A stretch of 64,000 nt of DNA from Tomocerus qinae (Eukaryota; Arthropoda; Collembola; Entomobryomorpha; Tomoceridae), in assembly GCA_020055645.1 (NCBI GenBank), contig CM034546.1, positions 44,640,001-44,704,000 of the forward strand, given 5' to 3'. Positions 6,701-61,034 of the stretch are shown here, one piece after another. A model generated the notes under the pieces. The model did not search any database and was not told the origin of the DNA. It worked only from the letters and a program-made list of their open reading frames with translations. Made by a program: the position numbers and the translations under genes. Positions within the stretch are counted from its first letter, which is position 1, and every line of letters begins with the position of its first letter.

Positions 6701-6865
6701 CCATTCAAATCTGTTGCTGTTGGACGAATGTTATGGGATTCGAAAATTTTAGAAGGTCACCCTTGGTCTTCGTTTGTTGATGAAATCAGCGACTATTACC
6801 TTTTCGAAGGTGGAAATGGAAAAGCAATAAGCAAATACCAATTTGAGAAGCTAAATACAGTTTAA
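3746..6865 (+). CDS. F-box protein with leucine-rich-repeat-like C-terminal region
   Basis: Coding exons 3746-3859 and 5390-6865 join in phase 0 (GTG/gtaaat ... ttcgcag/ATC) and give 529 aa. The join completes an F-box at about residues 32-67: IMKNIV-ILTKLFEFMGFRDL, then CNCRRVCSNWKSV. Neither exon alone contains the whole motif, which supports the splice. The rest is about 460 residues with scattered L..L.L..C/N patterns (for example NLDLWGC, SLNLSGK, YLNIWNT) that look like degenerate LRRs. F-box proteins bind Skp1 and recruit substrates to SCF ubiquitin ligases; the LRR part would choose the substrate (family knowledge). The ATG at 3746 has a good AAAA context and is preceded by a leader with its own intron (about 3600-3706, CA/gtaag ... 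tttag). An AATAAA follows at 6916. Lineage-expanded F-box/LRR families of this type are known in springtails; which substrate this one has is unknown. Confidence 0.8.
4135..4385. repeat. Dispersed-repeat-like segment inside the F-box intron
   Basis: Within the 1.5-kb intron 3860-5389. Locally CpG-rich and unlike its surroundings, with two related motifs (TTTCGCGCCTCGCGCGATTT and TTTTCCGCGCTTTGTGCGAT) about 90 bases apart and C/G runs near both ends. It looks like a short interspersed element, but no clean terminal repeat or target duplication was found. The rest of the intron holds nothing recognisable. Confidence 0.35.
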
Positions 6866-35794: not shown

Positions 35795-38700
35795 TCAAAC
35801 CTGGGACTTTTCACCAAAGTGAAATCTTTTTTTATGTTTAGATAGAGAGCTTGATTCTTTGAATCCATTGCCACAAAACTTACATTTGTAGGGACGCTCT
35901 TTAGAATGGGTTTTTCGGTGCCTTATCAATCCACTGCTGTCGGAGAATCTCTTTTTACACAATGTACAAACATAGGGCTTTTCGCCAGTGTGCACTCTTA
36001 TATGCCGATTCAAAGAACTTTTTTGTGAAAATCTCCTTCTACAAAACCCACAATGGTAAGGTTTTTCGCCAGTGTGGACTCTTTCATGTATTTTCAGTCT
36101 ATGTTTTTCTTTGAATGTTTTTTCACAAACGTTACACTTGTAGGGACGCTCTTCCGAATGGATTTTTCGGTGCCTTAGCAATCCACAGTTTTCTGAGAAT
36201 CTCTTTTCACAAAGTGTACAATAATAGGGCTTTTCACCAGAATGAATCCTAAAATGCCTATTTAAATTCCATTTCTCATCGAATCTCTTGGCACAAATTG
36301 TACACTTATAAGGTTTTTCGACATTGCGATCTTCTCTATAGCTTTTCAAACTACTTTTTTCTCCAAACGCCTTCCCAGAAACCACAATCTTATCAAGTCG
36401 TTCTTCCGAATGAGCTCTTCCAAGATTTATCAGACCACTTTGCTGGCTAAATCCCTTTCCGGTAATGGCGCGATTGACATTCATTTCTCCTTTATCCGTT
36501 TGACCTATTTTAGGCTGTGATACCTTTCGCCATACTTTTTCGCTTTCATCAGGCTGATACTTCTTCGAATTATTTTGCTTTGAATGATTTTGTGGAAGAA
36601 CATTTCGTAATTCTTGCTGCTCTTTGTCTTTAACATTGCAGTCAACTTTTTTGTTGTCGGATTCAATCAAATGGATGGACATGTTTCGTATAAGACTGGT
36701 TGAACTGGGCTTTTCACCAGAATGAATTCTTACATGCCTTCGAAAACTACTTTTTTGGGCAAATTCCATTCCACAAGTTACACACTTAAAAGGTTTTTCA
36801 CGAGTATGAACTCTGAAATGTTCATTCAAATCCGTTTTTGCTGCAAATCTCTTTACACAAAATTCACAGCCATAAGGTTTTTCACCAGAGTGAACTATTC
36901 TATGCCTTTTCAGATTATGTTTTTCTTTGAATCCTTTTTTACAAATCTCACACTTATAAAGTCGTTTTTCCGAGTGGACTCTTTTGTGGTTAATCAGACC
37001 ATTTTGCTCGCTAAATCCTTTCCCGGAGTGATTGACACTCATTTTCTCATTATCCTTATGACCTACTTTAGGCTGTAATACTACCTTTAGACATACCTTT
37101 TTACTTTCGTCAGGCAGACATTTCTTGGAATTATTTTGCTTTGAATGAGTTTGTTGGAGAATCTTTTGTAATTCTTGCTGTTCTTTCTCTTTAACTTGGC
37201 ATTCGTCTATTTTGCTGTGGGATTCAATCAAATCACTGGGCAGCTTGCCTCCATGACTGGTAGAACTTGAATTACAGATTCTTTCCTCTGATATCTGCTG
37301 ATTGGACAACGAGCCTGAAGTCTTAGTTGAAGTACAACCATGTAGCCGTCTTTTAAAGCTTGAAAGACGCATAATACATAATATGTTAGTAGTCTGCTAT
37401 AAGAACTTTAAACTTAATCAAGAAAATTTAGAAGAAATAATTGAATTTTACCCTTCGTGGGAAGATGTTTCAATTCCATCAGCAATTTTTAAGCTGCTCC
37501 CAGAGTCTTTTCCAGATACATCGGTTTGGATCACAATTTGGCCAGCTCCGATATTATCCCGCTTTTCAGTTATCGATATAGTGTTCCCGCAATAATTCAG
37601 TTCTATAAAAATGGTAGCAAAACGATTGAAATAAATTATTAAATTGCCATTTGTTTTGGAGACTTACAATGGGTTTTATCAAGGCAAATATAACCTAATC
37701 AGGTAGCCTCTTGCCATAATATTTCAAATAAAACTTCACTTTTTTCCTCGATAACCGTAACTATGGTCCCCTATTCGGGGTTCCTCACTGAGGTACGAGT
37801 TGGGAATAAAATGGCGATTTTATTCCCAAGAATGAAAAAATTGAATTTTTATCAGAAATATTACGGGAAGAGAGTACCTTATATTGTGTTGTTATAGCTG
37901 CCTTGGGTTTTATGTTTACATTTTACATGTGTAAAATGAAGTAGGTACAAAAGAAATGGATTATAGAATAAACTCTTTCAACTGTTTAACTTTATTGTCA
38001 ACCGTATCAAAATAGTAAATGATATAATATAGGATGACAGACACAGAGAACACAGGGTTAGAAACACAGATGTGCATTGTTTTTCTTTGTTCTCCTTTGA
38101 GGATTTAGATTTCATTTTTTGGCGCTAATATATTATTGGTATAGAGATTAATTTTGCACATGCGCAAAAATTTTTTAAACCATGTTCCAAAACTGTCACT
38201 TTTGGAAACGAAACGGTAATCTGGACTAAATATACATTCGATTTAACTACATTAGTCCATAATATTTCCTTAAGTGACAGTTTAGTAAAAATTTGACTTT
38301 TACTTGTACCGTTTCTAACATGTTTATTTAGTCATGAATGATTCAAAATATATAATTCGTGAATTGATGTGAGAACACAAACATCTCCGCTAGGGACATA
38401 GACTCAGAGATAGGAATGATTAGGAATAATTTAGAATAGTGTAAAAAGGGAGGGGTGCTTATCTACTCTTTTACTGTTTGCTAGGTTCTACTCCTTTTCT
38501 TCAACTTGGCCCGTGTGTATGCGTAATAGAAACTTGTATGCACTAATAAATGTGTATGGTTGAGAGATTGATTAGTGAGAGAGAATTCAATACTATTTAT
38601 TTGATACTTTAACTTATGTAATGATTTGTCTGTCCTTTGTCTCTTCATTTTACCGCTTATGCCACACAACTCAAGTTCACAAGGTGTTGTTCCTTTCCTA

Positions 38701-40162
38701 GGTGATTACAGAATGTCAAATAGAGTAACGGAACAGATAGTTCACCCATCGTTCTGTTCCCTGATTTGCATATCGCCTCAGGCTCTCTTCTATATCCTTA
38801 CATACCTCTCATTCTCTCTGGACCTGCTCGGCGTAAACAAGAGTTGGACTGGCTCTACATTTTATATTATATTTGTGTGTGTGAATCCGAGGATAGGAAC
38901 GAGTTATATTTTGTGTATTATTGCGAGGGCGCAGAGAATCATTGCGTAATAAGGATATTGAGATAGGAAATGATATTATTCTGTATTATATGTTCTTTTG
39001 TGTTCTGAATCATTACCTTTAAGTTGTGGAGTAAACTGGCCATTTACATTCACCTACACCTGCTACCATTGGAAGAGAAGCCTCGTCTATTTATTTGGTA
39101 TTGTGTGTATTTACTTTCATTGGGCAATTGCAATTATTATTATCATTCATAAAGCATACGGTAATCCATAAGGGAATCAGACAGAAGAGAACCGATATAT
39201 ATTAATAGGAATATAAGGGATTACTTATAATAGATAGATAGGTAGTCAAATGAGGACGAAGAGGAATAAAAAGTTATCACACACAGCTAGTATCGAAGCT
39301 AGCACCTCTCGCAATCCGGGCAAGTATTCTAACCATTAAACTAAATGTGCGTATAGGAAATAAGGGAAGAATTAGGAAGAGTCATTCTAATGTGAATACA
39401 GGTATTCACATTATCTTTCTTAAAATAAGTACAATTACTTTTTGTTACTTGCTGAAAAGTTTAAAAAGGATTCTTACTTTTGTGATCAGTGTTGACAGTA
39501 GAAACACCTGAAATCAGAATTTCCGTTTCAGGAAATAAGTCTGCATCAATGTCTCCGGTATTATTCATTTCATCAATCAAATCTATTTCATCCCTTTCGA
39601 CTTTTATTTGTTCAAATGTCACATGCACAGTGTCCCCAACGATATCTGACGAAGGAATGACCAACTGATCCTGAAAGACCTCATTATAGGTATATGTAGG
39701 AATGTTGAGATTTGAGAAATCCTCTTCCGAGGTCACATTTTCATTTGCATCAGGGATATCAGAATATGTCTTCCTAAAGTCGTTATTTGGAATAGTCGAT
39801 TGGCACTCGATTAATTGTCTCCACGACTTGATGTAGTTCGGTCCATTCTCGACATCACTATTATTTGACGTTCTTCCAGAACGACGTTGTAAAATTTCAG
39901 ATTGTCCTTCAAAAACTAAAGTCGATATTTGTTTTAGATACAGTCCCATCTCCTCATCGAGATTGTACAGTTTTTCAAAAAACTTGAAACATTCCTTGCA
40001 GAATGATGATTTATCCCGAATAGAATGATTAGATGACATTTCTGTTATTGACGAATGCAAATATTTGCAGCAAATTTCAGTCAACTTTTGAGTTTCGTCA
40101 CAAGATACACCTTCTCCTTCGAATTCCTTGTAACACACGACACAATCTTTTAATGTGCTCAT
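35795..40162 (-). CDS. ZAD-like/C2H2 zinc-finger protein A
   Basis: Three exons, 40162-39478, 37602-37452 and 37358-35795, join in phases 1 and 2 with GT-AG sites and give 799 aa. Residues 1-80: a ZAD-like module with Cys pairs (CVVC and FCKEC) about 50 residues apart; ZAD modules dimerise. Residues 81-410: acidic, low-complexity linker. From about 415: three C2H2 fingers ([10 protein letters not shown]..., [10 protein letters not shown]..., [10 protein letters not shown]...), a second linker, then six fingers from about 630 to the end, joined by TGEKPY/SGEKPY linkers. A degenerate finger ([22 protein letters not shown]) precedes the second block. Predicted nuclear DNA-binding regulator (family). 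The short second exon matches the one in gene B codon for codon, supporting the model. Intron 1 (1.9 kb) contains a copy of the gene's own upstream region. Confidence 0.85.
37890..38335 (-). repeat. Extra copy of the zinc-finger upstream region, inside an intron
   Basis: Aligns with the DNA upstream of zinc-finger genes A (about 40320-40690) and B (about 50890-51270): shared ACACGTGTAAAATGAA-type, AATGGATTATAGAATAAA, CTCCTTTGAGGATTTAGATT and GGCGCTAATAT blocks. It therefore marks a third ancestral copy. The remainder of the intron, 38340-39270, shows nothing recognisable. Confidence 0.7.
39279..39352 (-). tRNA. tRNA-like sequence, probably a pseudogene or tRNA-derived repeat
   Basis: 74 bases. 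Acceptor-like ends ACGCACA/TGTGTGT pair with one wobble. An A-box-like TTAGTTTAATGG is present. The anticodon stem CTTGC/GCGAG encloses the loop CCGGATT. The T-arm GCTAG/CTAGC holds TTCGA. The loop lacks the universal U33 and the T-loop is eight bases, so a working tRNA is unlikely. Confidence 0.45.
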
Positions 40163-41911: not shown

Positions 41912-44900
41912 TTACCATTTGTTAAACCATTTTTTAATTGATGGCATAATATTCCAAATTTTGAAAGAAAATGTCTTTTTGTGAGTCAGAGATATTGCAA
42001 AACAGGTCGAATTTTCCTTGGAAGCCTTTAGTATTCTGCTTTTTTCCCCTTCATTTTTATTACTTGAGAGCAATATGAAATATAATCCATTGAAAATCCT
42101 TGATTTTGTTGCCTGAATTACAGTGCATGTATTTTGGAGTTTATATTTGCTTCTGTTTTCGAACAAAAATTCGCATAAAAACACTAGTGCCCCCGATATA
42201 AAAACGTAAAAAATGATGACTATATTAGAATTCGTGAATTTTAAAGGACCAACGTCGTCCTTGCTAAGACAATGTCGACATTGTCTAAAGTTTTTTGAAT
42301 CGACCATTTTAAAGTATGACTCCCATTTGTGGTAAATTCCAGATTGATGTATTTGAAATAATCTTCTTTTAAAATAAGTTATTCCCAATTTAAAATTTCT
42401 TGTTGCAAAACCAAGTCCTCGTGTTCTCCTCAGAATAGCATTACTGGCCTTTCCAAAATATAATTTTCGTTTGGGATGAAGACCAGTATTATAATTCCAG
42501 TTGGAGTCATTTACAAACCAATGCAAAAGACTCTCTTTGTCAATATACATTGAATTATTACATTCAGAAATGAATTTTTGGGGAGTGACAAAGGGAAAGT
42601 TTGGATTTACATTGTGTCTCTGGTAAAGTGTATCATTTAGCTTCGACCATTGAATAAACTTTTTCGTCACATTTGTCTGAACACTTTTTGACAATGTATA
42701 TTTATGTTCCGTTTCAACATCGTCAACAAAATTTAACCACTCAATGAAAAACATGTCTGGAAACATGGAATTTAACTTTCTATTGTACATTACGTTCTGC
42801 TGGTAAAGACTAATGTTCTTTTCCATAGCTTCCTTTGGTTTATTTTCGATTTGTTTATCACATTGTATTAAGTTTTTAAAACTTACATTTGGTTTTCCAC
42901 CTATGTCACTAATACAATTTAAAAAACTTGTAGAAATTTTAGCCTCATTCAATCGGAAAGTACCATTTGAACAATGATGTATTGTAGGGCCAGTAGAAAC
43001 AATATCCTTGTGATCAATTAGATCATAAATAGATTCAATTCTCTGTACAGGTGGCTCACCAATTAAATCTGTAACAACTACACCTTTGTATCCGTTGGTT
43101 ATTACTATGAACATTAAAAGAAGAGGGCCGACGACAAGCTTCAACCAAAGTAATTTTCTATATTTGTTAGGCAAACACAACCAGAGGAAATAACGAATAA
43201 AAGTCGTCTTTAAAATGAAGTACGACCAACACGAACACAATGACAGAGGTCGAAAAGCAGTAATTAAGCAAATCCACGTCTCTGAGTCAAATGGACGAGT
43301 CAATGCTTGAAAGTTGTGAGCATCTTGTCCCAAAGTGCTGCATGAAACAAAATTGTAACCTTCTTCCAATGTCGGAATAAATTCTGATGTCATCACTAGA
43401 AAATAAAAATTCAAGTTTATACTGCATTGTCCCTGTGGCATTTTGCTTTTCGGGAGCTTGAAATCTGTCTAAATTGTATAATATATTTATGAATGTGCTT
43501 TGGACGAGAAATCTTACCCATGCATTCAAAAACATGACATTTGACCTCGTTATAGGTTCATTGGATGCAAAAATTGCTGAATATTCCCCTTTATTACACC
43601 CATAGCTTCCAAATAACATATTGAAAGGGTCAACAATTTTGAAATATTAAATACCTGTTATTAACTCATGGTTTTACTTTTAAACGGGCAAAATTTTGAT
43701 TAAACAATTCCCAACATGAAAAACTGCCTATTTCAAAAAATATTTCGTAATTTTGAAAGGGTAGAAATTTGAATTTTTTACAAAATCAAAAATTCCTGAG
43801 ATACAGAGATTGTTGACTTTCTCTGTTCTGTTAAGTTAATAAGTTAAAAATGAAGTCGATTGTCATTTTGCAACATAGCCGACAATAATATTAAAACTGA
43901 AAAATACTTTAAAACATTTTCGTCAATAACATAGACGAATTCTAAAAAACAATTAATCACAGGATATGATTTATAGAAACAAGAAATGAGTATGTTAAAT
44001 TCTATATTGTCTTGTTCCTGTTATAACCAAACATTGCGTTCCTTAACGAATGAATAAACTTTAATCCACTTATTTTATGTCCTAAAATGAAATGTGGATT
44101 AAGGCATAAATTTATTCCTTATGATTGACAGATCTCAGACTCCCTACATTTCACTAAATGTCAGAATATACTGATTAATTATTACTTACGTTCAATTCGG
44201 TTTCTAATCCAAGTCATTGTATACAATCTTTCAACTTCCCAATGAGTAGTCTAGTTTTAAATGTATTGAATCGTCTGAGATGCTCAATATACCATGATGA
44301 TCGCAGAGATTTATAGAAGCATTTGGTAAATTATTAAGGAAAATTGCCCCTAAAAAGAATTCCATTTGTCCAAGATTCAATTTCATCATTTTAATACTTT
44401 TCACAAGAAGTGTGCATTCACTAGGACTAATAATAGCCCGAAATGGATTCCTTGTACTACTCCTTGTAACAATCATTTCAAATGTTCTTTTGTTATAAAA
44501 GTTTTTCAATTCAGACTCATTTGCCTTGTCTGTAATTATATTTTTCAATGCAGTACCATCCGAATGAGACGCATTGAATAATTTTAATAGACGACATGAA
44601 TAGGACGAAACACATTGCATATAATATATTAAGGTACACACATACGCGTAGAACATTTATTATTTTCGACAGGGCTTCTCTTTAAAAAGTTCCTGTGAAT
44701 TTTTTGGTTATTTACACTTCTTCGTGGGTCCAGTAAGTTCAGATCCTTAGGGACTTTTCTAAAAATGTCATACAATTTTTTCACTTGCATCTTTTTGTCC
44801 AAGATGAACATGGTAATCAAGAGGCTTAGTGATCAGTATCCATAGAGACTTTCTAATTTGCGAATCTAAACACTTTTGGATTGCTATGGTTCAGTTTGTA

Positions 44901-45719: not shown

Positions 45720-46780
45720 TGAATTTTAGGTAATTTTGCCCGGGTGGGTGGGCAAGATGTAAAAAACCGGTTGATTTAGAACTCTGGGAACAACTTTACT
45801 GAAGTGCACAGACATACACAAGGACTTTGTGAAGGGTACTGAACCATGGGACGGAATGGCTCGACACTGTTCTGCAAATTGATGTGCACTCAGAGAGAAA
45901 CCGAAACTGCCAGTGACCACAAACAAATACTAAGTTAGTACTAAGCAGTCTACTTCGACCCACCTTATTCCCTCATTTATGTGTATCCCATTGTCCAGAC
46001 TAGACTTGTGTTAGGTAGAACTCTTAGTAGCACGTAATTGGCAAATCAATACTATAACGAATATACGGAAATGACAGCTAGTTCTCCCAGCTCCAGACTA
46101 ATTACCATTTAAGTGTTTATTTTGTTAGTTTTAATATTTACAAAATTATAAAAGTTATGGAAATTACGCTACGATTTATAATGTCCATGAAATAAACTAT
46201 AAATATTGAGTTAAAAAAGTGTTTTGATTCTATCGAGATTGAAAAACAACCAAACTTTGCTTTAAATGCGCATTTGCGCAAGAATCGCTCAAATGAAAAG
46301 AAAGTTCTCATTCAATTTGAAGGGCAGGGAGCAACCATAAGCAACCACAGATCGTAGAAGAGGTGTTGGATGTTCATCACTGGATAGCGTTAACATATCT
46401 AAAGAGTGGATTTTACGAATTTTCATGACATTACAGATGAAAATTAGTTGAAACTTAGCTCTAACGTTGTTTCATAAGGCTTAACATAATCCAAGGGGGA
46501 TTTTTGGTGTAATATCAATTCTAACATCTCATGTTTTTGAGAGTTTGTTACATGAATTTGACTAGAATTTCATTTTATTATAAAATTTCTGTCACTTTGT
46601 ATGAATGAAAATAAATTAATGCATGTAATAGCAATTAACAAGTTAATGAAAATAATTATGATAATTACGATTACATTAGTTATTTAATTTAGAAGCAAAA
46701 TAAAAGATGACCTTCACAATAATCTTAAAGTGAAATTACTCAATGTTCATGTTAAGATGACTATATTTAACTACCTAATA
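45720..46780. other. Spacer between blocks A and B
   Basis: No gene seen; sequence without match to either block. A short open frame at 45726-45926 shows no recognisable features. Confidence 0.4.
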
Positions 46781-47393
46781 TTCCATCTCCATTTTTTGTT
46801 TCTTCCAATCCAATCTATATTTTTTTAAATGTCTCATACCTAAATTGTTTGTCAATTCCTTTCGGCGTTTAATTTTTATTGAATTTTAGTAATAACAATT
46901 TAGTATTTCCTTTGAATGCCATTAACGATGAATAAACCACTTTCATCAAAACATTTCAATGATACATCAAACAGATTTATTGACAAATTACATTAATTTA
47001 CTTATTACATTTCAAAGTCTTGACAACATTTTGACATCAGAAAATGGCTAGACAATAACACGTAAATATTTTGATCTCTACAATGTATTATCCTTTCGCT
47101 AAACAGAATATTAATATTAATATACTAGACATTTTTTGAGAAATGGTTATAACTGTAATTTTTGTACTGTTATTGTTAATCATAATCCAATATGAAACGA
47201 TAAATATTTGCTGAATAAGTAATTTTCTAGATATTCTTTAAATTATTCTCATTCTGTCGGATGTTTACAGGTCTTACATCATATGTCGGTGTGTATTGAG
47301 TGAGAAATTTCTAATCATATTTTGTCCTGTAAGAATTCTATAATGTACTGTGAGCATAGCTTTAGTTTTAAATTCATTTCCACAGCTTCAAAC

Positions 47394-50300
47394 CTATAAC
47401 TTTTCACCAATGTGAAATCTTTTTTTATGTCTAGACAGAGAGCTTGATTCTTTAAATCCAATGTCACAAGCCTTACACTTGTAGGAAGGACGCTCTTTCA
47501 AATGGATCTTTTGGTGTCTGTACAAATTACGTGATACCCTAAATTCCTTTCCACAAATGTCACACTTGAAGGGTTTTTCGCCAGTGTGAATTCTAATATG
47601 GTCATTCAAGTAACTTTTTTGTGCAAATCTCTTTTCACAAAACTCACACTTGTGGGGACGCTCTTTCAAATGGATCTTTTGGTGTCTGTACAAATTACTT
47701 GATACCCTAAATTCCTTTCCACAAACGTCACACTTGAAGGGTTTTTCGCCAGTGTGAATTTTAATATGGTCACTCAAATCCCTTTTCTCTGTAAATCTCT
47801 TTCCACAAAATGCACAATTATAAGGTTTTTCGCCAGTGTGGACTCTTATTCCATGCCTTTTCAGATCTGCTTTTTCTCCGAATGTTCTTGGACAAACCTC
47901 ACACTTGTAGGGACGCTCTTTCGAATGGGTTTTTAGGTGTCTTTTCAAATTACTTTTGTTTAAGAATCTCTTTTCGCAAAGTTTACAAACATAGGGCTTT
48001 TCGCCAATATGAATTTTAACATGCCTATTCAAATTATATTTCTCATCGAATCTCTTATCACAAATTGTACACGTATAAGGTTTTTCGCCATTGCGATCCT
48101 CTCTGTGGCTTTTCAGATTACTTTTTTCTCCGAACGCCTTCCCAGAAACGACAGTCTTATTAAGTTGTTCTTCCGAATGAACGTATTCATGATTTGTCAG
48201 ATCACTTTGCTGGGTAATTCCTTTCCCGGAAACGGCGCGATTGACATTCATTTCTCCTTTATACGTATTACCTATTTTAGTCTGTAATACCTTTCTCCAT
48301 ATCTTTTTAGTTTCGTCAGGAATACATTTCTTCGAATTATTTACCTTTGAATGAGTTTGTTGGAGAATCTCTTGTAATTCTTGCTGTTGTTTCTCTTTAA
48401 CTTGGCATTGGCCTATTTTTCTGTGGGATTCAATCACATCACTGGACAGCTTGCCTACATGACTGGTAGAACTTGAATTACAGATTCTTTCCTCTGATAT
48501 CTGCGGAATGGACAATGAACCCGAAGTCTTAATTGGAGTACAATCAGGTAGTGACCATCCTTTAAAGCTTAAAAGACATAATACAAATGTTAGTAGTCTG
48601 CTATTATGAACTTTAAACTTAATCAAAAAAACTTAAAAGAAATAATTGAATTTTACTCTTTCCCGTCATCATAAAATATTGCAATTGCATCAGCACTACT
48701 TTTTTCTCCAAACGCCTTCCCAGAAACCACAATCTTATCAAGTCGTTCTTCCGAATGAGCTCTTTTATGATTTATCAGACCACTTTGCTGGCTAAATCCC
48801 TTTCCGGTAATGGCGCGATTGATTTCTCCTTTATCCGTATGACCTATTTTAGGCTGTGATACCTTTCGCCATACCTTTTCGCTTTCATCAGGCTGATACT
48901 TCTTCGAATTATTTTGCTTTGAATGATTTTGTGGAAGAACATTTCGTAATTCTTGCTGCTCTTTGTCTTTAACATTGCAGTGAACTTTTTTGTTGTCGGA
49001 TTCAATCAAATGGATGGACCTGTTTCGTATAAGACTGGTTGAACTGGGCTTTTCACTAGAATGAATTCTTACATGCCTTCGAAAATTACTTTTTTGGGCA
49101 AATTCCATTCCACAAGTTACACACTTGAAAGGTTTTTCACGAGTATGAACTCTGAAATGTTCATTCAAATCTCTTTTTGCTGCAAATCTCTTTACACAAA
49201 ATTCACAGCCATAAGGTTTTTCACCAGAGTGAACTATTCGATGCCTTTTCAGATTATGTTTTTCTTTGAATCCTTTTTCACAAACCTCACACTTATAAAG
49301 TCGTTTTTCCGAGTGGACTCTTTTGTGGCTAATCAGACCATTTTGCTCGCTAAATCCTTTCCCGGAGTGATTGACACTCATTTTCTCATTATCCTTATGA
49401 CCTACTTTAGGCTGTAATACTACCTTTCGACATACCTTTTTACTTTCGTCAGGCAGACATTTCTTGGAATTATTTTGCTTTGAATGAGTTTGTTGGAGAA
49501 TCTTTTGTAATTCTTGCTGTTCTTTCTCTTTAACTTGGCATTCGTCTATTTTGCTGTGGGGTTCAATCAAATCACTGGGCAGCTTGCCACCATGACTGGT
49601 AGAACTTGAATGACAGACTCTTTCCTCTGATATCTGCGGATTGGACAACGAACCCGAAGTCTTAGTTGAAGTACAACCATGTAGTAACCGTCTTTTAAAG
49701 CTTGAAAGACATAATACATATATGTAAGTAGTCTGCTTTATGAACTTTAAACTTAATCAAGAAAACTTTAAAGAAATAATTGAATTTTACCCTTCGTGGG
49801 AAGATGTTTCAATTCCATCAGCAATTTTAAAGCTGCTCCGAGAGTCTTTTTCAGTTCCATCAGTGTGCATGAAAATTTGACCAGCTCCGATATTATCCCG
49901 CTTTTCAGTTATCGATATGGTGTTCCCACAATAATTCAGTTCTATAAAAAAAGATTAAAATAGATTATTAAATTGGCATTTGTTTTGGATAATAGTCATC
50001 GATTATCCAAAGTATATAATTTGTGGTTATAATATAAATATATTAATTTTTGGTACTTATTGTTAGCTTTTGAAACAGAATTCTTACTTTTGTTGTCAGT
50101 GGTTACAGTAGAAACACCTGAAATTAGAATTTCTGTGTCAAGAAATAAGTCTGCATCAATGTCTCCGGTTGCATTATTTACTTCATTAAGGGCATGAATC
50201 AAATCGGTTTCCCCCCTATCGACTTTTATTTGTTCAAATGTCACATTCACAGTCTCCGCAACGATATCTGACGAAGGAATGACCAATTGATCAGGAAATA

Positions 50301-50739
50301 CCTCATCATAAATATCTGTAGGCGTGTTGATATTTGAGAAATCCTTTCCCGAGCTCACATTTTCATTTGAAACAGTAGATAGGCCAAATTCGATTAATTG
50401 TCTCCACGACTTGATGTAGTTCGATCCAATCTCGCTGTTACTTGGTGTACTTCCAGAACGACGCAGTAAAATTTCCAATTGTCTTTTAAAAACTAAATCC
50501 GATATTTGTTTTTGACAAAGTTCCATCTTGTCATTGATATTGTACAGTTCTTCAACAAACTTGAAACATTCTTTGCAGAATGATGATTTATCACGAATAG
50601 TATGATTAGATGACATTTGTGTTATTGACGAATGAAAATATTTGCAGCAAATTTCAGTCAACTTTTGAGTTTCATCACAACATACACCTTCTTCTTCGAA
50701 TTCATTGTAACACAGGACACAATCTTTTAATGTGTTCAT
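47394..50739 (-). CDS. ZAD-like/C2H2 zinc-finger protein B, in-frame fusion of two copies
   Basis: Four exons, 50739-50088, 49941-49791, 49700-48657 and 48567-47394, keep phases 1, 2 and 2 and give about 1006 aa. Exons 1-2 match gene A (ZAD-like module with CVLC and FCKEC pairs). Exon 3 holds the linker and three fingers, then breaks off inside the degenerate finger (GKAFGEKSS) and runs into 39 bases that match the end of exon 2 (ADAIAIFYDDGK against [11 protein letters not shown]), keeping that exon's donor. Exon 4 is a complete third-copy finger exon: linker plus eight fingers, of which the units FKCDVCGKEFRVSSNLYRHQ and FKCDICGKEFRVSRNLYRHQ are a recent internal duplication. Total eleven fingers. 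Predicted DNA-binding regulator. The alternative is two separate pseudogenes, but preserved frame and splice phase favour one live chimera. Confidence 0.72.
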
Positions 50740-51827
50740 TTTTCAATTGGTTTCAGCACCGTTAGTCAGAAGGTGTAGTTTTCAGATGTACCTAGACAAA
50801 AAAACCAAAAAAGTTTTAATTTTAAATCCAAGGAAAGTGGATTTTGAGCGACTAATAATGAACTAGCCAAGTAAAGTCTTAAAATGGGTTTTAGGTTATA
50901 AAATATTACACGTGTAGGATGAAATACAAATGAAATGGATAATAGAATAAATTCTTCGAACTGGAAAACCGTATCAAAATAGTAAATGACCTGATATAAT
51001 GATGACAGTTAGAGAACACACGAACACAGGATTCGGAACACAGATTTGCATTGTTTTTGTTTCTTCTCCTTTGAGGATTTAGATTTCAATTGTCCGCGCT
51101 AATATTGTATTGGTATCAAGATTAAATTTGCGCATGAGCAAAAATGTTTCATACCACGTGCCAAAACAGTCACTTATGGCACCGAAACAGTAATCTGGAC
51201 TAATTCCGATTTAACTACTATAATATTAGTCCATATTATTTCCTTACATGGCAGTGTAGTAACATTTTTTACTTCCATGGCACTGGAATATATGGCTTGA
51301 AAGAATTCACCATCTCTGTCGCAGCATCAGCAGCTAGATATCCTTGGCAGAATATAACATTAGAGAAGGCCAGAGAATTCTCATTTTTTGGAACTTAGAA
51401 ATTAAATAGTTCCTAGAGTAGCAAGAGTTGCCTCACTACTAGGCCTAATTTTAGAATGAATTAATGCATGCTGAAGCACATCCGTTACGTCTACATATAC
51501 ACGATTACAATCTCTACTGTCTAACATTCTTTCCACTTTAAAAAGGGTATCGTGGATTATATTTTGTAATATTAATTTTGGACTTCATTCATTTTGTGTG
51601 ATCTAGGGTCACAATTCTTAGAATGTTTTCTAACATTAACAACATGGGACTTCCTATATACTTGCTAACATTCCATGACGAAATGGTCTGTACATCATTT
51701 CCGGAGCGTGAGCAGCCCTATATAATGATTTTGAACTGCCTTTTCCTAGATTTACCATGTTACCTCGTTATTGTCACAAATACACATATACATAGGGCTT
51801 TGAGTGTGAGATAAGTATTTTTCAAAG
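50740..51827. other. Upstream region of zinc-finger gene B
   Basis: Aligns with 40163-41195 in block A and with the intronic copy at 37890-38335. No gene. A 51.6-51.8 kb open frame has no counterpart in block A. Confidence 0.5.
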
Positions 51828-52209
51828 GATAACTTGTATAAATTATTTCGTATATGAGGGTGGTTACGTTTTGTATATACAAATAGATATCCCGTCCCGT
51901 ATATATGGATAATGACAACTTGCATACGCAAATGGATATTTTGTATATGCTCTCATCATGGATTACTATGATCATTAACATGATTAAATAATACAGATTG
52001 CTATCCTTTATATGGATAGTCATGGATTCGCATTTGTATTAATCTTTTACTTCATGTCATTAATCCATGCTAAAAGAGCATATAAGGGATATCCATTTGA
52101 GTATACAAGTTGTCACTATCAATGTATATCCCATATACTATATGGGATATCCTTTTGCATAAACAACTTGTCACTACCCTCCTATACGAAATGATTTATA
52201 CATGTTAAC
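51828..52209. mobile_element. Foldback MITE, block B copy (complete)
   Basis: Arms of about 135 bases: left GATAACTTGTATAAATTATT (from 51828) against right-end reverse complement GGTTAACATGTATAAATCAT (to 52209), both running through TTTCGTATA.GAGGGT and into repeated GACAACTTGTATAC blocks. Present at the same place in block A, so it predates the duplication. Any open frame inside is a product of the inverted repeat. Confidence 0.75.
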
Positions 52210-52507
52210 CGGATACCAATTTATCGGCCACATTTATGACGACGCGACCCTGAGAAATTTTATTGTTTTCTTCTGTTAATTTCGCAATCGAATATTCATA
52301 TCGGTACTTGTTAATATTTATTTATTTATATAACTTTCAATTTCCTTCAAGCCTTAAACTTTTTTGGACTAATGTATCGCATACTTTGTAACATTTAGTT
52401 TAGAAACAGAGTTTATATTATTGATGCATTTAATTAAACAAATTCAACAAATAATTAAGTTATTATCATTAGTATAATGGGAATAAACCGTTTAGCAAAA
52501 TTAAAGT
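52210..52507. other. Spacer downstream of IR gene B
   Basis: Aligns with 41534-41911. Nothing coding. Confidence 0.4.
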
Positions 52508-54212
52508 TTTACCATTTGCTAAACAATTTTTTAATTGACGGCATAATATTCCAAATTTTGAAAGAAAATGTCTTTTTGTGAGTCAGAGACTTGCAAACCA
52601 AAACAAATTTTCCTTGGAAGCCTTTAGTATTCTGATTTTCTTTCCCTTAATTTTTATTACTTGAGAGCAATATGAAATATAATCCATTGAAAATCCTTGA
52701 TACTGTTTCCCGAATTACAGTGTGTGCATTTTGGAGTTTAAATTTGCTTCTGTTTTCGAACAAAAATTCACATAAAAAGACTAGTGTCCCTGATAGGAAA
52801 ACGTAAAATATGATGACTATATTAGAATTCGTGAATTTTAAAGGACCAACGTCGTCCTTGCTCAGACAATGTCGACATTGTCTAAAGTTTTTTGAATCGA
52901 CCATCTTAAAGTATGACTCCAATTTGTGGTAAATTCCAGATTGATGTATTTGGAATAATCTTCTTTTAAAATAAGTTATTCCCAATTTAAAATTTCTTGT
53001 AGCAAAGTTAAGTCCTCGTGTTCTACGCAGAATAGCATTACTGGCCTTTCCAAAATATAACTTTCGTTTGGGATGAGGACCAGTATTATAATTCCAGTTG
53101 GAGTCATTTACAAACCAATGCAAAAGACTCTCTTTGTCAATATACATGGAATAATTACATTCAGAAATGAATTTTTGTGGAGTGACAAAGGGAAAGTTTG
53201 GATTTACATTATGTCTCTGGTGAAGTGTATCATTTAGCTTCGACCATTGAATAAGCTTTTTCGTCAAATTTGTCTGAACACTTTTTGACAATGTATATTT
53301 ATGCTCCGTTTCAACATCGTCAACAAAATTTAACCATTCAACAAATAACAAATGTGGAAACATGGAGTTTAACCTTCTATTGACCATTACGTGCTGTTGA
53401 TAAAGACTAATGTTATTTTCCATAGCTTCCTTTGGTTTATTTTCGATTTGTTTGTCACATTGTATTAAATTTTTAAAACTTACATTTGGTTTTCCGCCTA
53501 TGTCACTAAAGCATTTTAAAAAACTTGGAGAAAATTTAGCCTCATTCAATCGGAAAGTGCCATTTGAACAATGATATATTGTGGGACCAGTAGAAACAAT
53601 ATTTTTGTGACCAATTACATCATAAATAGATTCAATTCTCTGTACAGGTGGCTCACCAATTAAATCTGTAACAACTACGCCTTTGTATCCGTTGGTTATT
53701 ACTATGAACATTAAAAGAAGAGGGCCGACGACAAGCTTCAACCAAAGTAATTTTCTATATTTGGTAGGCAACGAGTAACTCACTTCCAAAATATATGCAT
53801 ACACAACCAGAGGAAATATTGGATAAAAGTCGTCTTTAAAATGAAGTACGACCAACACGAACACAATGACAGAGGTCGAAGCAATAATTAAGCAAATCCA
53901 CGTCTCTGAGTCAAATGGACGGGTCAATGCTTGAAAGTTTTGAGCATCTTGTCCCAAAATGCTACATGACACAAAATTGTAACCTTCTTCCAATGTCGGA
54001 ATAAATTCTGATGTCATCACTAGAAAATAAAAATTCAATTTAATACTGCATTGTCATGGTCTGACATTTTGCTTTTCGGAAGCGTGAAATCTGCCTAAAT
54101 TGTAGATAATATATTTATGAATGGGCTTTGGACAAAACCTTACCCATTCATTCACAAACATGACATTTACCTCGTTAAAGGGTCATTGGATGCAAAAATT
54201 GCTAATTATTCC

Positions 54213-54778
54213 TGAGAAAAGCTAAGTGTTCTCAACACTATTTGTTCGTAGACTAGTTAAGTATAAAATTAAAAAGTTCTAGCTAAATGATGGCAAAATT
54301 TCAAGTTAAGATGAGCCTAGCGTAAATGTGGGGAAATTGAGACTGGTGCAGCAAAACTTGTAGAACTGTAAAGTTTTATTTTTACAAAAAAGTTAAGAGA
54401 GGTGTGTATATGGGTAAAGACCAGAGTCGAGTGAGTTGATAGTACAGGTAAGTTACCCATATTTATAATATGGAGTTGACACAGATTACCTTCCTACATT
54501 CAGTTGATAGATAATCTTAATTCCATACATCGTAAATTGTGGTCCGCTTCCAGAGACCAATTATTCAATTGTGGTGTCTGGAAGTGGACCTTAGATCATA
54601 CATTCAAGAAAAAATAGTACAAGAGTTCACAACTTAATTTAAATGTAGGTAGGAATGACCATACGATTCATACAATCTTAAGAGAAACAGCACAAAAGTT
54701 CAAGTCCTAATTTACATCCTTTCTAAAATATAAATGCATAATTCTAGATACTGTACTTTTATGCTGGAGATTTCCACA
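54213..54778 (-). repeat. 3' LTR of the BEL/Pao element
   Basis: 566 bases, TGAGAAAAGC ... GAGATTTCCACA on the plus strand. Just inside lies a purine-rich tract on the minus strand (AGTGGGAGAA). The LTR contains a hairpin around CTTCCAGAGACCAATTATTC. Confidence 0.93.
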
Positions 54779-57700
54779 TTCTCCCACTGAATTAAGTTGA
54801 ACAATAGCTTAATTCTATAAAGATACAGCATAATAATGAAATAATAATGATACTCATAACATAAATGAAGCATAATACCAAAATCATAATAATATACAAA
54901 TGTCAGCAATACTTTAGCAAAAAGTTACATACAAAATGCCTAAATCACTGAGCACAACTTATACCGATCGTCGTACACAACCAAACACTTCACTTTTTAT
55001 GTTGATAATTGAGACGATCGGGGATTTTGCAACGACGTCCACTTTTGGTGACGATCTGCAGCTCAGGCTTCTTTGGAGGATTATGGTCGTCGGATGTTGG
55101 TGTAACTGTAGGTGTAGTTGTAGGGTGAGACTGCTGCAAACCTTGTCGCTCCTCTGTCGAGACTTCCAGTGGATAAAGTCTTTGAATGGGGCGCACAAGT
55201 TCTCCTTTTGCTGTCTTCAGTCTCACAACTCTTACATTTCCGTCGGCTCCTGGGTAGATTTCAACGACCTTCCCCATGATCCAATCAATCCTCTTATGTA
55301 TGTCATCGCCGATGAGGACAATACTTCCGGGAACAATGGGGTCGACTTTTCTCTTGCTTGCTGGAGATTGAATCAGCATTCCAAGGTATTCCCGTCGAAA
55401 TCTGCTCCTTAGATCATCTCTAAGCTTCTGGCAGTAGTTGAGGCGCTTGTTAAGTCCATGTCCATCCAGCAAATCCAAATCTGCAACTCCAGTTTCCCGA
55501 ACGTCTTGCAGGAACATGGCAGGAGTAAGCGGGACTAAATCCTCCGGGTCTTCCGAGACGTAAGTGAGAGGTCTCCCGTTGATGATACTCTCCACGTCGC
55601 ACAGCATCGTATAGAGTTCTTCGTAGTGTAGGGTCACCTTCCCCAAAACTCGCCTTAGGACCCTCTTGACTATCTGAATTAGCCGCTCCCACCAACCTCC
55701 GTGCCACGCCCCAGTAGCTGGAATAAAGCGCCACTGGATTTTCTGCGTCGCCGCCGTCGCCGCAACCACCTCCCAGTTAAGACTTCTAAAAAGATTGTCG
55801 GCTCCGACGAAATTGGTGCCATTGTCACTGTAAACAGTGACGGGACGTCCTCGACTAGCGATGAAGCGGCGGAAGGTCTGCAAAAAAGCTTCTGTGGAGA
55901 GAGAACCCGCCAGCTCCAAGTGGACAGCCCGGTAAACGGCGCAGGTATATAGGACGATCCAAACCTTTTTCCCTCCTTTCAGGTAGAGTGGGCCAGTCAG
56001 GTCAACTCCGGTCACTTCGAAGGTAGAGGCATCGCGGACCCGATCAGGAGGAAGAGATGTAGGCTCTGACACGAGTGGTTTGGCAGAGAAACGCCGACAA
56101 CGCACGCAGGAGGAAATCACCTCCTTTATAGTCTTTCGGGAGCGGAGGATCCAGAATTTCTCCCTGAGTGCAGATTGTACGAATTGAACTCCGGCATGGC
56201 TCATCTACAAGTGCTTCGCCCTGATGAGTGCTCTCACCATAGGATGTCGGGGTGGCAGAACAGCAGGCCTTTTAAAGTCGAAGTTGTCCTGTCTTCTTAA
56301 CAGCTTTGTTTTCACCCGCAAGACTCCTCTGTCATCTTTTGAAAGCCGGACAAAGTTGAAGATGACTTTATTTTCTGCCAAAGCTTCTTTCTGTACCAAC
56401 CAGATTAGGGACATCTCCGCATCTTCTAGCTCTTTGACGGTTAGGATTCCCGCAGGTCGGTCCTTTGAAGTGTTTCTCCTGGCTCCAAAACGTCGGATAT
56501 ATGCTACTACACGGATGATGCTGCGGTATTCCGACATGTGGGACGAGAGATTTTCGGAGAAATTTTCTACGTCTGCAGCTGTAGTGTGGGCTGCTACTGC
56601 CTTTCTCCGTTCTGCATTGACGATTTCTTCGTCAGGAGTACATGTAGAGTTGGGCCAGAATTTTTCGGGTTGTCTCAGCCATTCTGGACCCTCCCACCAT
56701 CTGGACTCCAGTAATTGAACGGTGGTGCAGCCTCTTGAAGGTAGGTCAGCGGGATTGAGATGGCCGGGGATATGTCTCCAGTCTTCAAAATCGCTTAGCT
56801 CTCTGATCTCCTTTACCCGATTTGCAACGAAGATCGTCCACTGTTCGCTCTTGCGGATCCAGGAAAGGGCGTTTGCAGAATCGGACCAAAATGTCATCCT
56901 TATGTCTGGGTAGTTGATGGCTCTTTTCATTGAGTCTGCTAGACGGGCACCGATGCAGCAGGCCATCAGCTCCAATCTTGGAATGGAAATTTTCTTCACG
57001 GGTGCAACTCTTGTCTTTGCGGAGATTAGTTGCGCCGTTGCACCCGCCGCCGCCTCCCCTCTCAGGAACACGCACGTACTGTAGGCGGCTTTACTTGCGT
57101 CGACAAAAACGTGTAGTTGCCAGGATTGGCGGGGACAGTCCATCCCAAATAACCATCGTGGAATTTCTGCTGTAGATAGGAGGGTAAGACAGTCAGCCCA
57201 TTTCTTGAATTCTTTGGAGATATCTTCCGGCACCTCCTCGTCCCATCCAACTTTCGACTCCCAGATTTTCTGCAGCAGCAACTTGGGCAGGAGCGTAACA
57301 GGGCACGTAAATCCGATGGGATCAAAGACTTTGTGGGCTGCAGACAGTATCCCTCGCTTGGTGACAGGTTCGCCAGGCTTTATTTCATTTTCGGTCAGGA
57401 GGCAGGCCAAAGTATCTCGTCTCAAGCTCCAGGAAAGTCCTAAGACTGGCAGAGTTTCTTCTTCCGCAGCATTTATGGAGTTAGACGTCCACCCTCTTAA
57501 ATCGAATTTAGCGGAGGCCATAAGTGCCGTGGATTCCTTCTGGAAAATCTGCATCTCCTCCTCTGTAGCGAAACTTGCAATAGAATTGTCCACATAAAAC
57601 GACGATTTTAGATGCTGACCAGTTTTTTGTAGCTGTGCCGGTGCCGAATCTATGTGGTGGTTGATGGTAGCTCCCAACAGAAAAGGGCTGGCGGAGACAC

Positions 57701-60468
57701 CAAAAAGAACTCGCTTGTGCCGAAACTCCAGGGTGCGGCTGCAATTTTCTAGTGGATCCTCCCACCACAGGAACCGGAGGAAGTCTCGATCTTCTTTCCG
57801 GATGCTCATCTGAAGGAAAGCCCGTTTAATATCGGAGACCAATCCAAAACGTTCAAGCCGAAATCTGGTCAAGACATCAGGGATGAGCTCCAGAAGGTTT
57901 GGGCCCTTCTCCAAGCAATCATTGAGGGATGGAGAGAACCTTTCGTGGGCTGATGCATCAAACACGGGCCGGACCGGCGTAGTTTGGCTGGATAGTTTCA
58001 CCACTGCTCGATGTGGCAAGAAATGTCCGAAATTCGAGATTTCTCCAAAGGGAACCTTCTCTATGACATCGTCGGAGAGCCACTCTTCAAAGATTTGGTT
58101 GTAGGCTGGTAGCATTCCTTCCGCCTTAAGTTTCTTCGTAGAGTTTTCTGGCCTTTTCTCCGCGATTAGTCTGTTGCTTCTTAGGTGGCTGTGATCGGAG
58201 ATCCACGGCAATGATACTTGGTAGCGGCCGTCAGGTTCTCTCGTCACCGTCTCCTTTAAGTATTGCATGGCTGCTTGCTGGAGTTCCTCCTTCGAATTTT
58301 TCTCCGCCGGGTCAGTTATCCCTATTGCGTCGAGCTTCCATAAATCCTGGAGAGTGGCATCGGACACATGGGCTGTTGTGACGACGGTTGTTGTTGCTGA
58401 GGGTTGTGGGCTGCGACCAGTCTTGCCTAGAAGAGTCCATCCAAGAAAAGTTTCGAAAGCAACTGGGCCGCTGTCCAAATCTTGCTTCTTTCCGGTGAAC
58501 AATTTGCCGGCGACATCTCCTCCGATTAACAGACGGATTTCGGGCAGGTCGGTTCCAACGTCTGAGAGTTTGACTCCCATTCCCTTCAGCTCCTTCATCC
58601 ATGGACCATTTGAAACACGGGGGATGGAGCCGCAAATTTTCTCCGCTTCCAGTGTGACAAAGTTGCAGCGGTAGCTGTGGTCCATGCTGGTAAGCCATAC
58701 ACGGTATTTTCGGTGAGTCTTCTCACTGGTCACCAGTCCTCCGAAAAGACAATTTTTTATCTTTTCCTCGCCGATGCTGCAGTAGCCCATTTTCTCCGCC
58801 GCGTAGGAGTCCAGGTAGGATCTCTGCGAGCCGCTGTCAATCAGCGCTCTGACGGTTCTCTCTTCGGAGCCATTACAGATACGGACGAGTAGAGTCTGCA
58901 AGCACACGTCCTCCGTGCAGGTCTGGTTGGAAAGGGTGTTGCTGCTGCTTGGAGTGGATTCTTTTCCCTGAGTTGTCCCCGTCTTTTTCTCCGAAAGATC
59001 TGGACACATGTTTGTGTAATGCCTTTTGGAACACAGGGTACATCTGATGAATGGTTTGCATTTCCCAGGGTGGCTTCCCAACAGACAGTCTTCACACGCA
59101 TTCTTTTCCCCCAAAATCTTCTTCTTTTCCTCCAATGACATTTTGGACGCCTGGTAGCAGTCCTTACTGTCGTGGGACTTAGTGCAGAAGACACAACAAC
59201 ATTTTTTCTTTTTAGAATTTGATTTGTTAGGCTCACCATTGAAGAGTCCAGCTGCCGTCGGGGTATCACGAGATTCTCGAGAATTTTCCTCTCCTTTGGG
59301 CTGCTTCTTCGACTTTTCTTCTTTCTCCACGGTGAAACCTTTTCTAGCCATGGCTATTCTCTCCTCTCCTTCCACTTCCTTTCGAATGTAGGACATCAAG
59401 AGAAAGAGTTGGTTGGGCGTTGATTGGGACGTTGTTGATTCAGCAATCTGACTTCCATCTGCGGCGGCGGTGGCAGGGACACTCGGCTCTTCCGTCTGTG
59501 GATATGCGTGAATTCTTCTCCGTTCCCAATTTCGCAGGACGTCTTCCGGCAGGCAGGACTCGACCAACGGGTAGAGCATGGCCGCGTATTTGTCCGAGGC
59601 CAGTCCTAGAGTCTCCAAAGCCCGGAGAGACGTCTCCAATCTGTCGTAAAGACTCGACAGCACGATTTTTTGTTGATGAGCTGCTCTTTGGAGGACGAGT
59701 TGCAGCAGGTCCCGAACATACACCTCCACGAGTATATCTTCTCTCCCGAATCGGCTCTTCAAACTTTCAATGGCTTTTGGGTAGCAGTTGGCACTCGGGG
59801 GGAAACTCGCGACGAGTTCTCCAGCTCTTGACTTTTTCTCCACAGCCTGCAGCAAGTATTGAAATTTGTCGGCACCGTTCATGTCTGCATCGGTGTCGAT
59901 CTTTTCAAACTGCCCCCAGAATCCCAGCCAGTCCTTTGGATCACCGGAGAACTTCTTTCATTCGATTTTTGGAAGTTTCAGTCTTCGGTCTTTACCTACA
60001 CGGCTTTTGGTGCTGGTGCTGGTACTGGAACTGCAGCTAGTGAACTCACTGTCGTCTTTAGCTTGGAAGATCTCCACTTTTGCTCTCATCAGGCCCAGGC
60101 GGTCTTGAAACGCTTCGGATCCTGAATGTTCTTCCTCTACATCCTGTGCTATATCGGTGGCTTCGGGAATGAGGAGTTTGTCAAGGAGTGTGGCCATAAC
60201 TTGTTCGTCAATTCGGGCGACGGTTCCTCCTTTTCGCTCCAGATTCTTCATGAGCCCGTCAACTAGCATCGGGGATGGTTCCATCTTGTCCAGCTCTTCT
60301 TGCAAATTTGCGATGGTCTTGTTGAACTGTTCACGAGCAGGACCTCGTTGAGTTCGGAGTACCATTAGGTGGTGATCGACTTCCTCAAGGGTAGGCATCT
60401 TCGCGAAAAAACTGGAACTTTTTGCTCTTTTAAAACAATTTTAACTAGTCCTAACCAGGGGCGCCAAA

Positions 60469-61034
60469 TGAGAAAAGCTAAGTGTTCTCAACACTATTTG
60501 TTCGTAGACTAGTTAAGTATAAAATTAAAAAGTTCTAGCTAAATGATGGCAAAATTTCAAGTTAAGATGAGCCTAGCGTAAATGTGGGGAAATTGAGACT
60601 GGTGCAGCAAAACTTGTAGAACTGTAAAGTTTTATTTTTACAAAAAAGTTAAGAGAGGTGTGTATATGGGTAAAGACCAGAGTCGAGTGAGTTGATAGTA
60701 CAGGTAAGTTACCCATATTTATAATATGGAGTTGACACAGATTACCTTCCTACATTCAGTTGATAGATAATCTTAATTCCATACATCGTAAATTGTGGTC
60801 CGCTTCCAGAGACCAATTATTCAATTGTGGTGTCTGGAAGTGGACCTTAGATCATACATTCAAGAAAAAATAGTACAAGAGTTCACAACTTAATTTAAAT
60901 GTAGGTAGGAATGACCATACGATTCATACAATCTTAAGAGAAACAGCACAAAAGTTCAAGTCCTAATTTACATCCTTTCTAAAATATAAATGCATAATTC
61001 TAGATACTGTACTTTTATGCTGGAGATTTCCACA
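60469..61034 (-). repeat. 5' LTR of the BEL/Pao element
   Basis: 566 bases, same sequence as the other LTR by eye. On the minus strand it is followed after two bases by TGGCGCCCCTGGTTAGGAC, the likely tRNA primer-binding site. Confidence 0.93.

Follow-up and report, generated by a model that had tools for sequence, protein, structure and literature searches.

The choice of DNA sites by C2H2 zinc-finger proteins depends in part on the number of fingers and on the linkers. In insects, ZAD-ZNF genes are described from Drosophila as present in many clustered copies with rapid turnover (PMC7655104). In mammals, clustered C2H2 genes are described in which duplicated finger motifs make closely related copies differ in finger number (PMC2443715). 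In yeast, break-induced replication and template switching have been summarized as a source of chimeric genes, through long segmental duplications seen experimentally (PMC2518615). Two further papers served as context only (PMC10547256, PMC7615360), and among the titles and abstract openings searched, which took in few subscription journals, none dealt with the family described here or with inserts of this kind in zinc-finger genes.

Here we describe two tandem neighbours of Tomocerus qinae, gene A (40162-35795) and, upstream of it, gene B, both on the minus strand of the window, that is, the whole 64,000-nucleotide stretch that was analysed (C1:44640001-44704000 of a searched genome of 334 Mb in 115 contigs). 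Judged from sequence comparison, B probably arose by an in-frame insertion of 1,128 bp, templated by A and carrying three fingers, into exon 2 of a three-exon gene.

Results

The composite gene B has four exons on the minus strand (Table 1), which the predicted splice junctions join into a single open frame of 1,006 codons, and its three introns, of 146, 90 and 89 bp, all have a GT donor and an AG acceptor. Exon 3 runs from a linker through three fingers and a second linker to a second exon-2 tail with its donor, with the frame unbroken. The initial annotation had given the exons of B these positions, with a second exon-2 tail inside exon 3 and a junction from 48657 to 48567, and the 1,006-codon frame does run through that junction; the GT at the donor and the uninterrupted frame likewise bear out its view that the breakpoint keeps donor, frame and splice phase. 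Translation of the predicted exons of B gives 11 tandem C-X2-C-X12-H-X3-5-H fingers with complete ligands in all, against 9 in the 799 codons of A, as had been counted before, and this places both genes among the C2H2 genes. The linkers were miscounted, since a genome search with a linker query found three such stretches in B, where two had been claimed, and two in A.

Table 1. Features of genes A and B, with positions numbered from the first base of the window
Feature	Position	Strand	Description
Gene A exon 1	39478..40162	-	gene model, comparison with B
Gene A exon 2	37452..37602	-	gene model, comparison with B
Gene A finger exon	35795..37358	-	linker 1, three fingers, linker 2, six fingers
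Putative donor segment in gene A	36350..37483	-	exon-2 tail to linker 2
Gene A intron 1 stretch absent from B and C	37661..39430	-	genome-wide repeats and upstream-region copy
B exon 1	50088..50739	-	ATG; ZAD-like N-terminal domain C-X2-C ... C-X2-C, without Pfam zf-AD match
B intron 1	49942..50087	-	146 bp
B exon 2	49791..49941	-	phase 1 in, phase 2 out
Putative insert from gene A	48695..49822	-	1,128 bp; set by the change point; edges putative
B exon 3	48657..49700	-	putative insert 49700-48695, then own exon-2 tail 48694-48657, donor GTAAAA
B third intron	48568..48656	-	89 bp; would be the original B intron 2 under the insertion reading
B exon 4	47394..48567	-	single linker and eight fingers; stop 47394-47396
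Two-finger repeat in B exon 4	47464..47819	-	47464-47651 against 47635-47819, 88.8% identical

The Pfam family zf-C2H2 was matched by the exon 3 ORF (1.6e-17) and by the exon 4 ORF (1.9e-45), and B also has the order of a linker followed by a C-terminal finger array that is a trait of ZAD-ZNF proteins; from this architecture, the B protein would be a DNA-binding regulator. In exon 1, the cysteines C7, C10, C55 and C58, which form two C-X2-C pairs, are invariant in 18 of 18 aligned members, namely B, A and 16 of the 18 other fetched loci (all except L009 and L012). None of these 18 members matched Pfam zf-AD (PF07776) at E up to 1, and the two zf-AD matches of the genome are loci outside this set. 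A profile comparison with a zf-AD-positive domain of the same genome gave a weak link (hhalign probability 40.6%, E 0.00029 for the single comparison), a profile search of the PDB at E up to 10 returned three sequences with no ZAD chain among them, and the structure model of the domain was a weak one, with a mean pLDDT of 63.7. We call the exon-1 domain ZAD-like, without assigning it to ZAD proper. A search of Rfam over 46000-52300 gave no match at the gathering score.

Comparison with A divides B into three parts. Gene A is 94.7% identical to 49989-48695 over 1,311 bp, and the similarity between the two genes is thus not due to chance. A scan of 2,497 aligned A/B bases between 51290 and 48695, with all sites included, placed a single change point at 49828 (49850-49813 within 2 lnL units), with 14.7% differences upstream and 2.65% from there to 48695; the gain was 60.7 lnL units against a maximum of 10.4 in 300 shuffles, and a second change point added only 4.8 units. 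When noncoding and third positions were taken by themselves (1,298 sites), the step fell at 49725 (49862-49643), with 16.5% against 1.9% differences and a gain of 33.4 against a shuffle maximum of 10.0. The older level of 14.7% extends from the upstream region of B (88 of 512 bases differ from A) across exon 1 and intron 1 into the 5' part of exon 2. Because exon 2 evolves fast, the position of the change point rests on few sites.

Synonymous divergence between B and A follows the same pattern. The dS was 0.203 for exon 1 (23/129.5 sites), 0.152 for exon 2 as a whole and 0.036 for the block inserted in exon 3 (7/199.7 sites), and the ORF of the surrounding unit gave 0.156 (35/249.2 sites) when one 60-column window where the two frames disagree was left out, or 0.193 with this window kept. 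Within exon 4, the first half of the linker had a dS of 0.088, its second half together with the first finger 0.228, and the last finger 0.259; these parts add up to 20.5/137 synonymous sites, a sum that leaves out B fingers 5-10, which have no clean alignment with A fingers. Silent divergence of the block differed from that of exon 1 (Fisher p = 2e-5) and from that of the tested exon-4 parts (p = 0.0003), and the latter two were alike (p = 0.51). In the 3' flank 87 of 493 aligned bases differ, with 128 gap positions, and divergence in this flank and in the tested exon-4 parts is back at the older level. The third intron of B differs from A intron 2 at 8/90 or 11/88 bases, depending on alignment and boundaries. 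The earlier description of B as a chimera of tandem paralogues that keeps frame and phase holds, but its exons 1-3, which were assigned to one copy, are not of one age (14.7% against 2.65%).

The junction lies at 48695/48694. Up to this point both genes read AGTAGT, after which A continues with TTGAAAAG and B with GCTGATGC, starting from the base that corresponds to 49822 of exon 2, and homology with exon 2 at the join is one base at most. Position 49822 falls inside the change-point interval of 49850-49813, and therefore the young block starts, within error, where B's own sequence later resumes. Exon 2 would accordingly be B's own from about 49941 to 49823 and A-like from about 49822 to 49791. 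The putative insert reaches from the exon-2 tail over intron 2, linker 1 and three fingers into linker 2, and 1,038 of its 1,128 bp are exonic, equal to 346 codons. Removal of 49822-48695 in silico leaves an exon 2 of 157 bases and an open single-linker gene of 660 codons with eight fingers, the layout of five relatives elsewhere in the genome. Both features expected of a templated insertion are seen here, a middle segment close to its donor between two older flanks, and a recipient that is continuous once the segment is taken out. With 2,597 bp of B as the query, A was the sole strong match besides B itself among the best candidates scored (95%), followed by matches of 78% (also in A) and 72%.

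The course of events that we infer starts from an ancestral B of three exons, a ZAD-like exon 1, a short exon 2 and a single-linker finger exon with eight fingers, and B and A would have split by tandem duplication of a unit that also held other ORFs. A later DNA break or stalled fork in the tail of B exon 2 would have led the exon-1-side end to copy about 1.13 kb of A, from the matching place in A exon 2 through intron 2, linker 1 and three fingers into part of linker 2, and this end would then have rejoined the exon-2 tail of B itself, with no more than one shared base. The outcome, once spliced as predicted, would be the gene of 1,006 codons and eleven fingers, and because the join sits in the frame of B exon 2 and ahead of the donor that B already had, both frame and splice phase would be kept. 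The donor was presumably A rather than a lost sister of A, although the 5' region of A is rearranged and A is thus perhaps an unfaithful record of it.

Some observations count against such an insertion. The silent-site interval is 220 bp wide, with its best point in intron 2, and B's own exon-2 tail inside exon 3 is unusually divergent, with 25 of 36 aligned bases matching A. Intron 2 of the insert differs from A at 6 of 90 bases, more than its exon part. The linker-1 part of exon 4 (dS 0.088) lies below the other tested parts of this exon, and coding constraint on the insert gave no clear signal (18/802 nonsynonymous against 7/200 synonymous, p = 0.31).

The initial annotation favoured a deletion between misaligned whole copies. 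A deletion of roughly ten kilobases would have fused exon 3 of the upstream copy to exon 2 of the downstream one, and later conversion by A would have rejuvenated the middle; the tandem array, with units that carry full copies, suits this account, and the end structure would be identical. We consider it unlikely, since a deletion predicts a single divergence level from exon 1 through exon 2 into the 5' part of exon 3, and a sharp step was found in or next to exon 2. It also needs a vanished extra unit, the deletion itself and a conversion with its left end at the place where exon 2 resumes, and the similar silent distances of exon 1 and the tested exon-4 parts from A are those of one gene. Templated insertion explains every level of divergence, with the step at the resume point, in one event and is for this reason preferred to deletion followed by conversion.

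That A was the recipient, either overwritten from B between its exon-2 tail and linker 2 or with its exon 1 and 5' exon 2 replaced, seems very improbable. The 5' part of A has indeed been rearranged, as the 1.77 kb stretch with an upstream-region copy in its intron 1 shows, but the divergence step lies in or beside exon 2, more than 100 bases from that rearrangement and at B's resume point, and the finger exon of A runs on unbroken past the point where the insert of B stops. Tandem duplication within B as the sole event can be dismissed, as the linker of the block is 97% identical to A against 89% to B exon 4, and exon 4 has one linker.

Fingers 1-3 of B are 96, 98 and 96% identical to A fingers 1-3. 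The array ends also align with A at the DNA level (B4/A4 86%, B11/A9 89%), whereas some middle fingers align poorly (B6/A6 60%, B8/A8 58%), and a one-to-one correspondence between the arrays rests on order and array ends. Within B exon 4, fingers 8 and 10 are 96% identical and fingers 7 and 9 are 83% identical; the eight fingers of this exon, against six in A, would be explained most simply by a two-finger repeat. Since A's own fingers 1-3 match the three of the junction segment and the exon-4 repeat adds two, the two-finger excess over A probably does not come from the junction. The earlier claim that fingers were gained by exchange is therefore kept for the three that appear to have been added to B's ancestor, but the excess over the nine of A is more simply put down to the repeat.

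Gene A is itself modified. Its intron 1 contains several genome-wide repeat families and a 391 bp copy (37904-38294) of gene A's own upstream region. The second linker of its finger exon is absent from B exon 4 and from the five single-linker relatives, and the B exon-4 linker resembles different A linkers in its two halves, the first being closer to linker 1 (dS 0.088, against 0.402 to linker 2) and the second, with the first finger included, closer to linker 2 (0.228, against 0.416 to linker 1). Either the extra linker and three fingers of A were gained once the units had split, or they were lost from B, and we favour the gain because the relatives have a single linker; it is possibly an earlier insertion of the same sort as that proposed for B.

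The A and B units each also contain ORFs with no convincing Pfam match, including 52647-54053 and 41912-43468, and the units around them are 91.4% identical over 1,741 aligned columns. The ORF at 52647-54053 matched no Pfam family, and an ionotropic receptor, which was considered for it, found no support, comparison with a nearby ORF that matches Lig_chan below threshold having given no similarity. Upstream of A as well as of B, the units carry an inverted-repeat element with many genome copies (51827-52210). An LTR retroelement (54213-61034), which we take to be BEL/Pao, with integrase-type domains in 54993-56204, separates two ORFs of the tandem unit; its 566 bp terminal repeats are 100% identical, and it is probably a very recent insertion. 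A third copy, C, to the right of the window, is truncated, with the start of the linker present and no fingers seen among ORFs of at least 90 residues. Copy C and a large retroelement frame share a stretch of 15 kb whose tandem duplicates are 99.6% identical (64515-94528 in window numbering, L043-L046). Elsewhere in the window, an ORF at 735-1139 matches the insulin family below threshold (20.3 bits, cut-off 23), and a 497-residue ORF at 5372-6865 codes for an F-box domain and has a weak, sub-threshold leucine-rich-repeat match.

Exon 1 of B has at least 81 matches in the genome, and among the matches listed all but one are on C1, so the exon-1 family is large and clustered. Gene bodies were read at six relatives elsewhere in the genome, and two loci at 44.50 and 46.36 Mb, which had no match to the linker query, enter none of the counts. 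Five of the six relatives (13.06, 40.83, 58.35, 59.377 and 59.383 Mb) have one exon 2 and one linker, and in the one at 59.383 Mb linker and fingers lie in different frames. The sixth, at 59.370 Mb (L051, C1:59368942-59371806), shares the layout of B, with a second exon-2 tail and an intron in frame within the finger exon, in the order linker, finger start, second exon-2 tail with donor, second intron and a complete linker-finger exon. Between its two copies 55 of 582 aligned bases differ, and an apparent frameshift lies near the end of its exon 1; on both counts this gene may be a relic.

In a tree of linker DNA, A linker 1 paired with the B block (support 97/95), with the B exon-4 linker outside, and the two linkers of the 59.370 Mb gene paired together inside the 59 Mb group (85/90, below the star level of the tool). 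Because the linkers at 59.370 Mb pair with each other and the B block with A, the two layouts apparently come from two separate events, as far as these sequences tell. Common inheritance of the layout is not favoured, given this pairing and the five other relatives without it, although concerted change could hide a shared ancestry. Both genes resume within a few bases of the same place in exon 2. A wider reading, which we regard as distinctly speculative, is that copied cassettes of linker and fingers enter genes of this family repeatedly at the exon-2 tail and its donor. The same (G)CTGATGC place would have been used twice, once in B and once, separately, in the 59.37 Mb gene, and the second linker of A would be an earlier step in the assembly of the cassette that later spread to B. 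In that case the exon-2 tail would supply frame, phase and donor, allowing a segment of a paralogue to enter without breaking the gene.

Discussion

Whether the extra exons of B are used is a question separate from their origin. Transcripts could end in exon 3 or the gene could be silent, in which case there would be no eleven-finger protein; we find this doubtful, yet well worth keeping in mind. Readthrough past the exon-3 donor meets a stop immediately, the third donor, GA|GTAAAA, is one that we assume to be weaker than the GG|GTAAAA of A and B exon 2, the insert shows no clear selection, and the reading frame of the like-built 59.37 Mb gene appears disturbed where exon 1 ends. However, B keeps 1,006 stop-free codons with 11/11 fingers intact, and the only two exonic length differences from A within the block are both multiples of three.

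With the templated insertion from A as the most probable origin, B would have received from its neighbour, in a single step, an intron as well as linker sequence and three fingers, with frame and phase intact, and the event can be followed at almost base resolution. The case also shows how a fusion by deletion can be told from a copied insert through divergence along the gene, and the 59.37 Mb gene with the layout of B makes recurrence of this route within the family testable.

We regard B as a clear example of an already known kind of event. Like the insect ZAD-ZNF genes, it combines a cysteine-rich N-terminal domain, a linker and C-terminal tandem C2H2 fingers, in a family that likewise has many clustered copies and a rapid turnover, but zf-AD is unmatched in the 18 family members here and the profile link is weak (PMC7655104). 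The two-finger repeat in exon 4 resembles what is described for mammalian C2H2 clusters; unlike finger gain within arrays, the event proposed for B would have moved an intron, an exon-2 tail, linkers and three fingers into exon 2 (PMC2443715). The short or absent homology at the join, the copied segment and the chimeric open frame of B are similar to yeast template switching, whereas the experimental yeast duplications are long and the B segment is 1.1 kb and proposed from divergence (PMC2518615).
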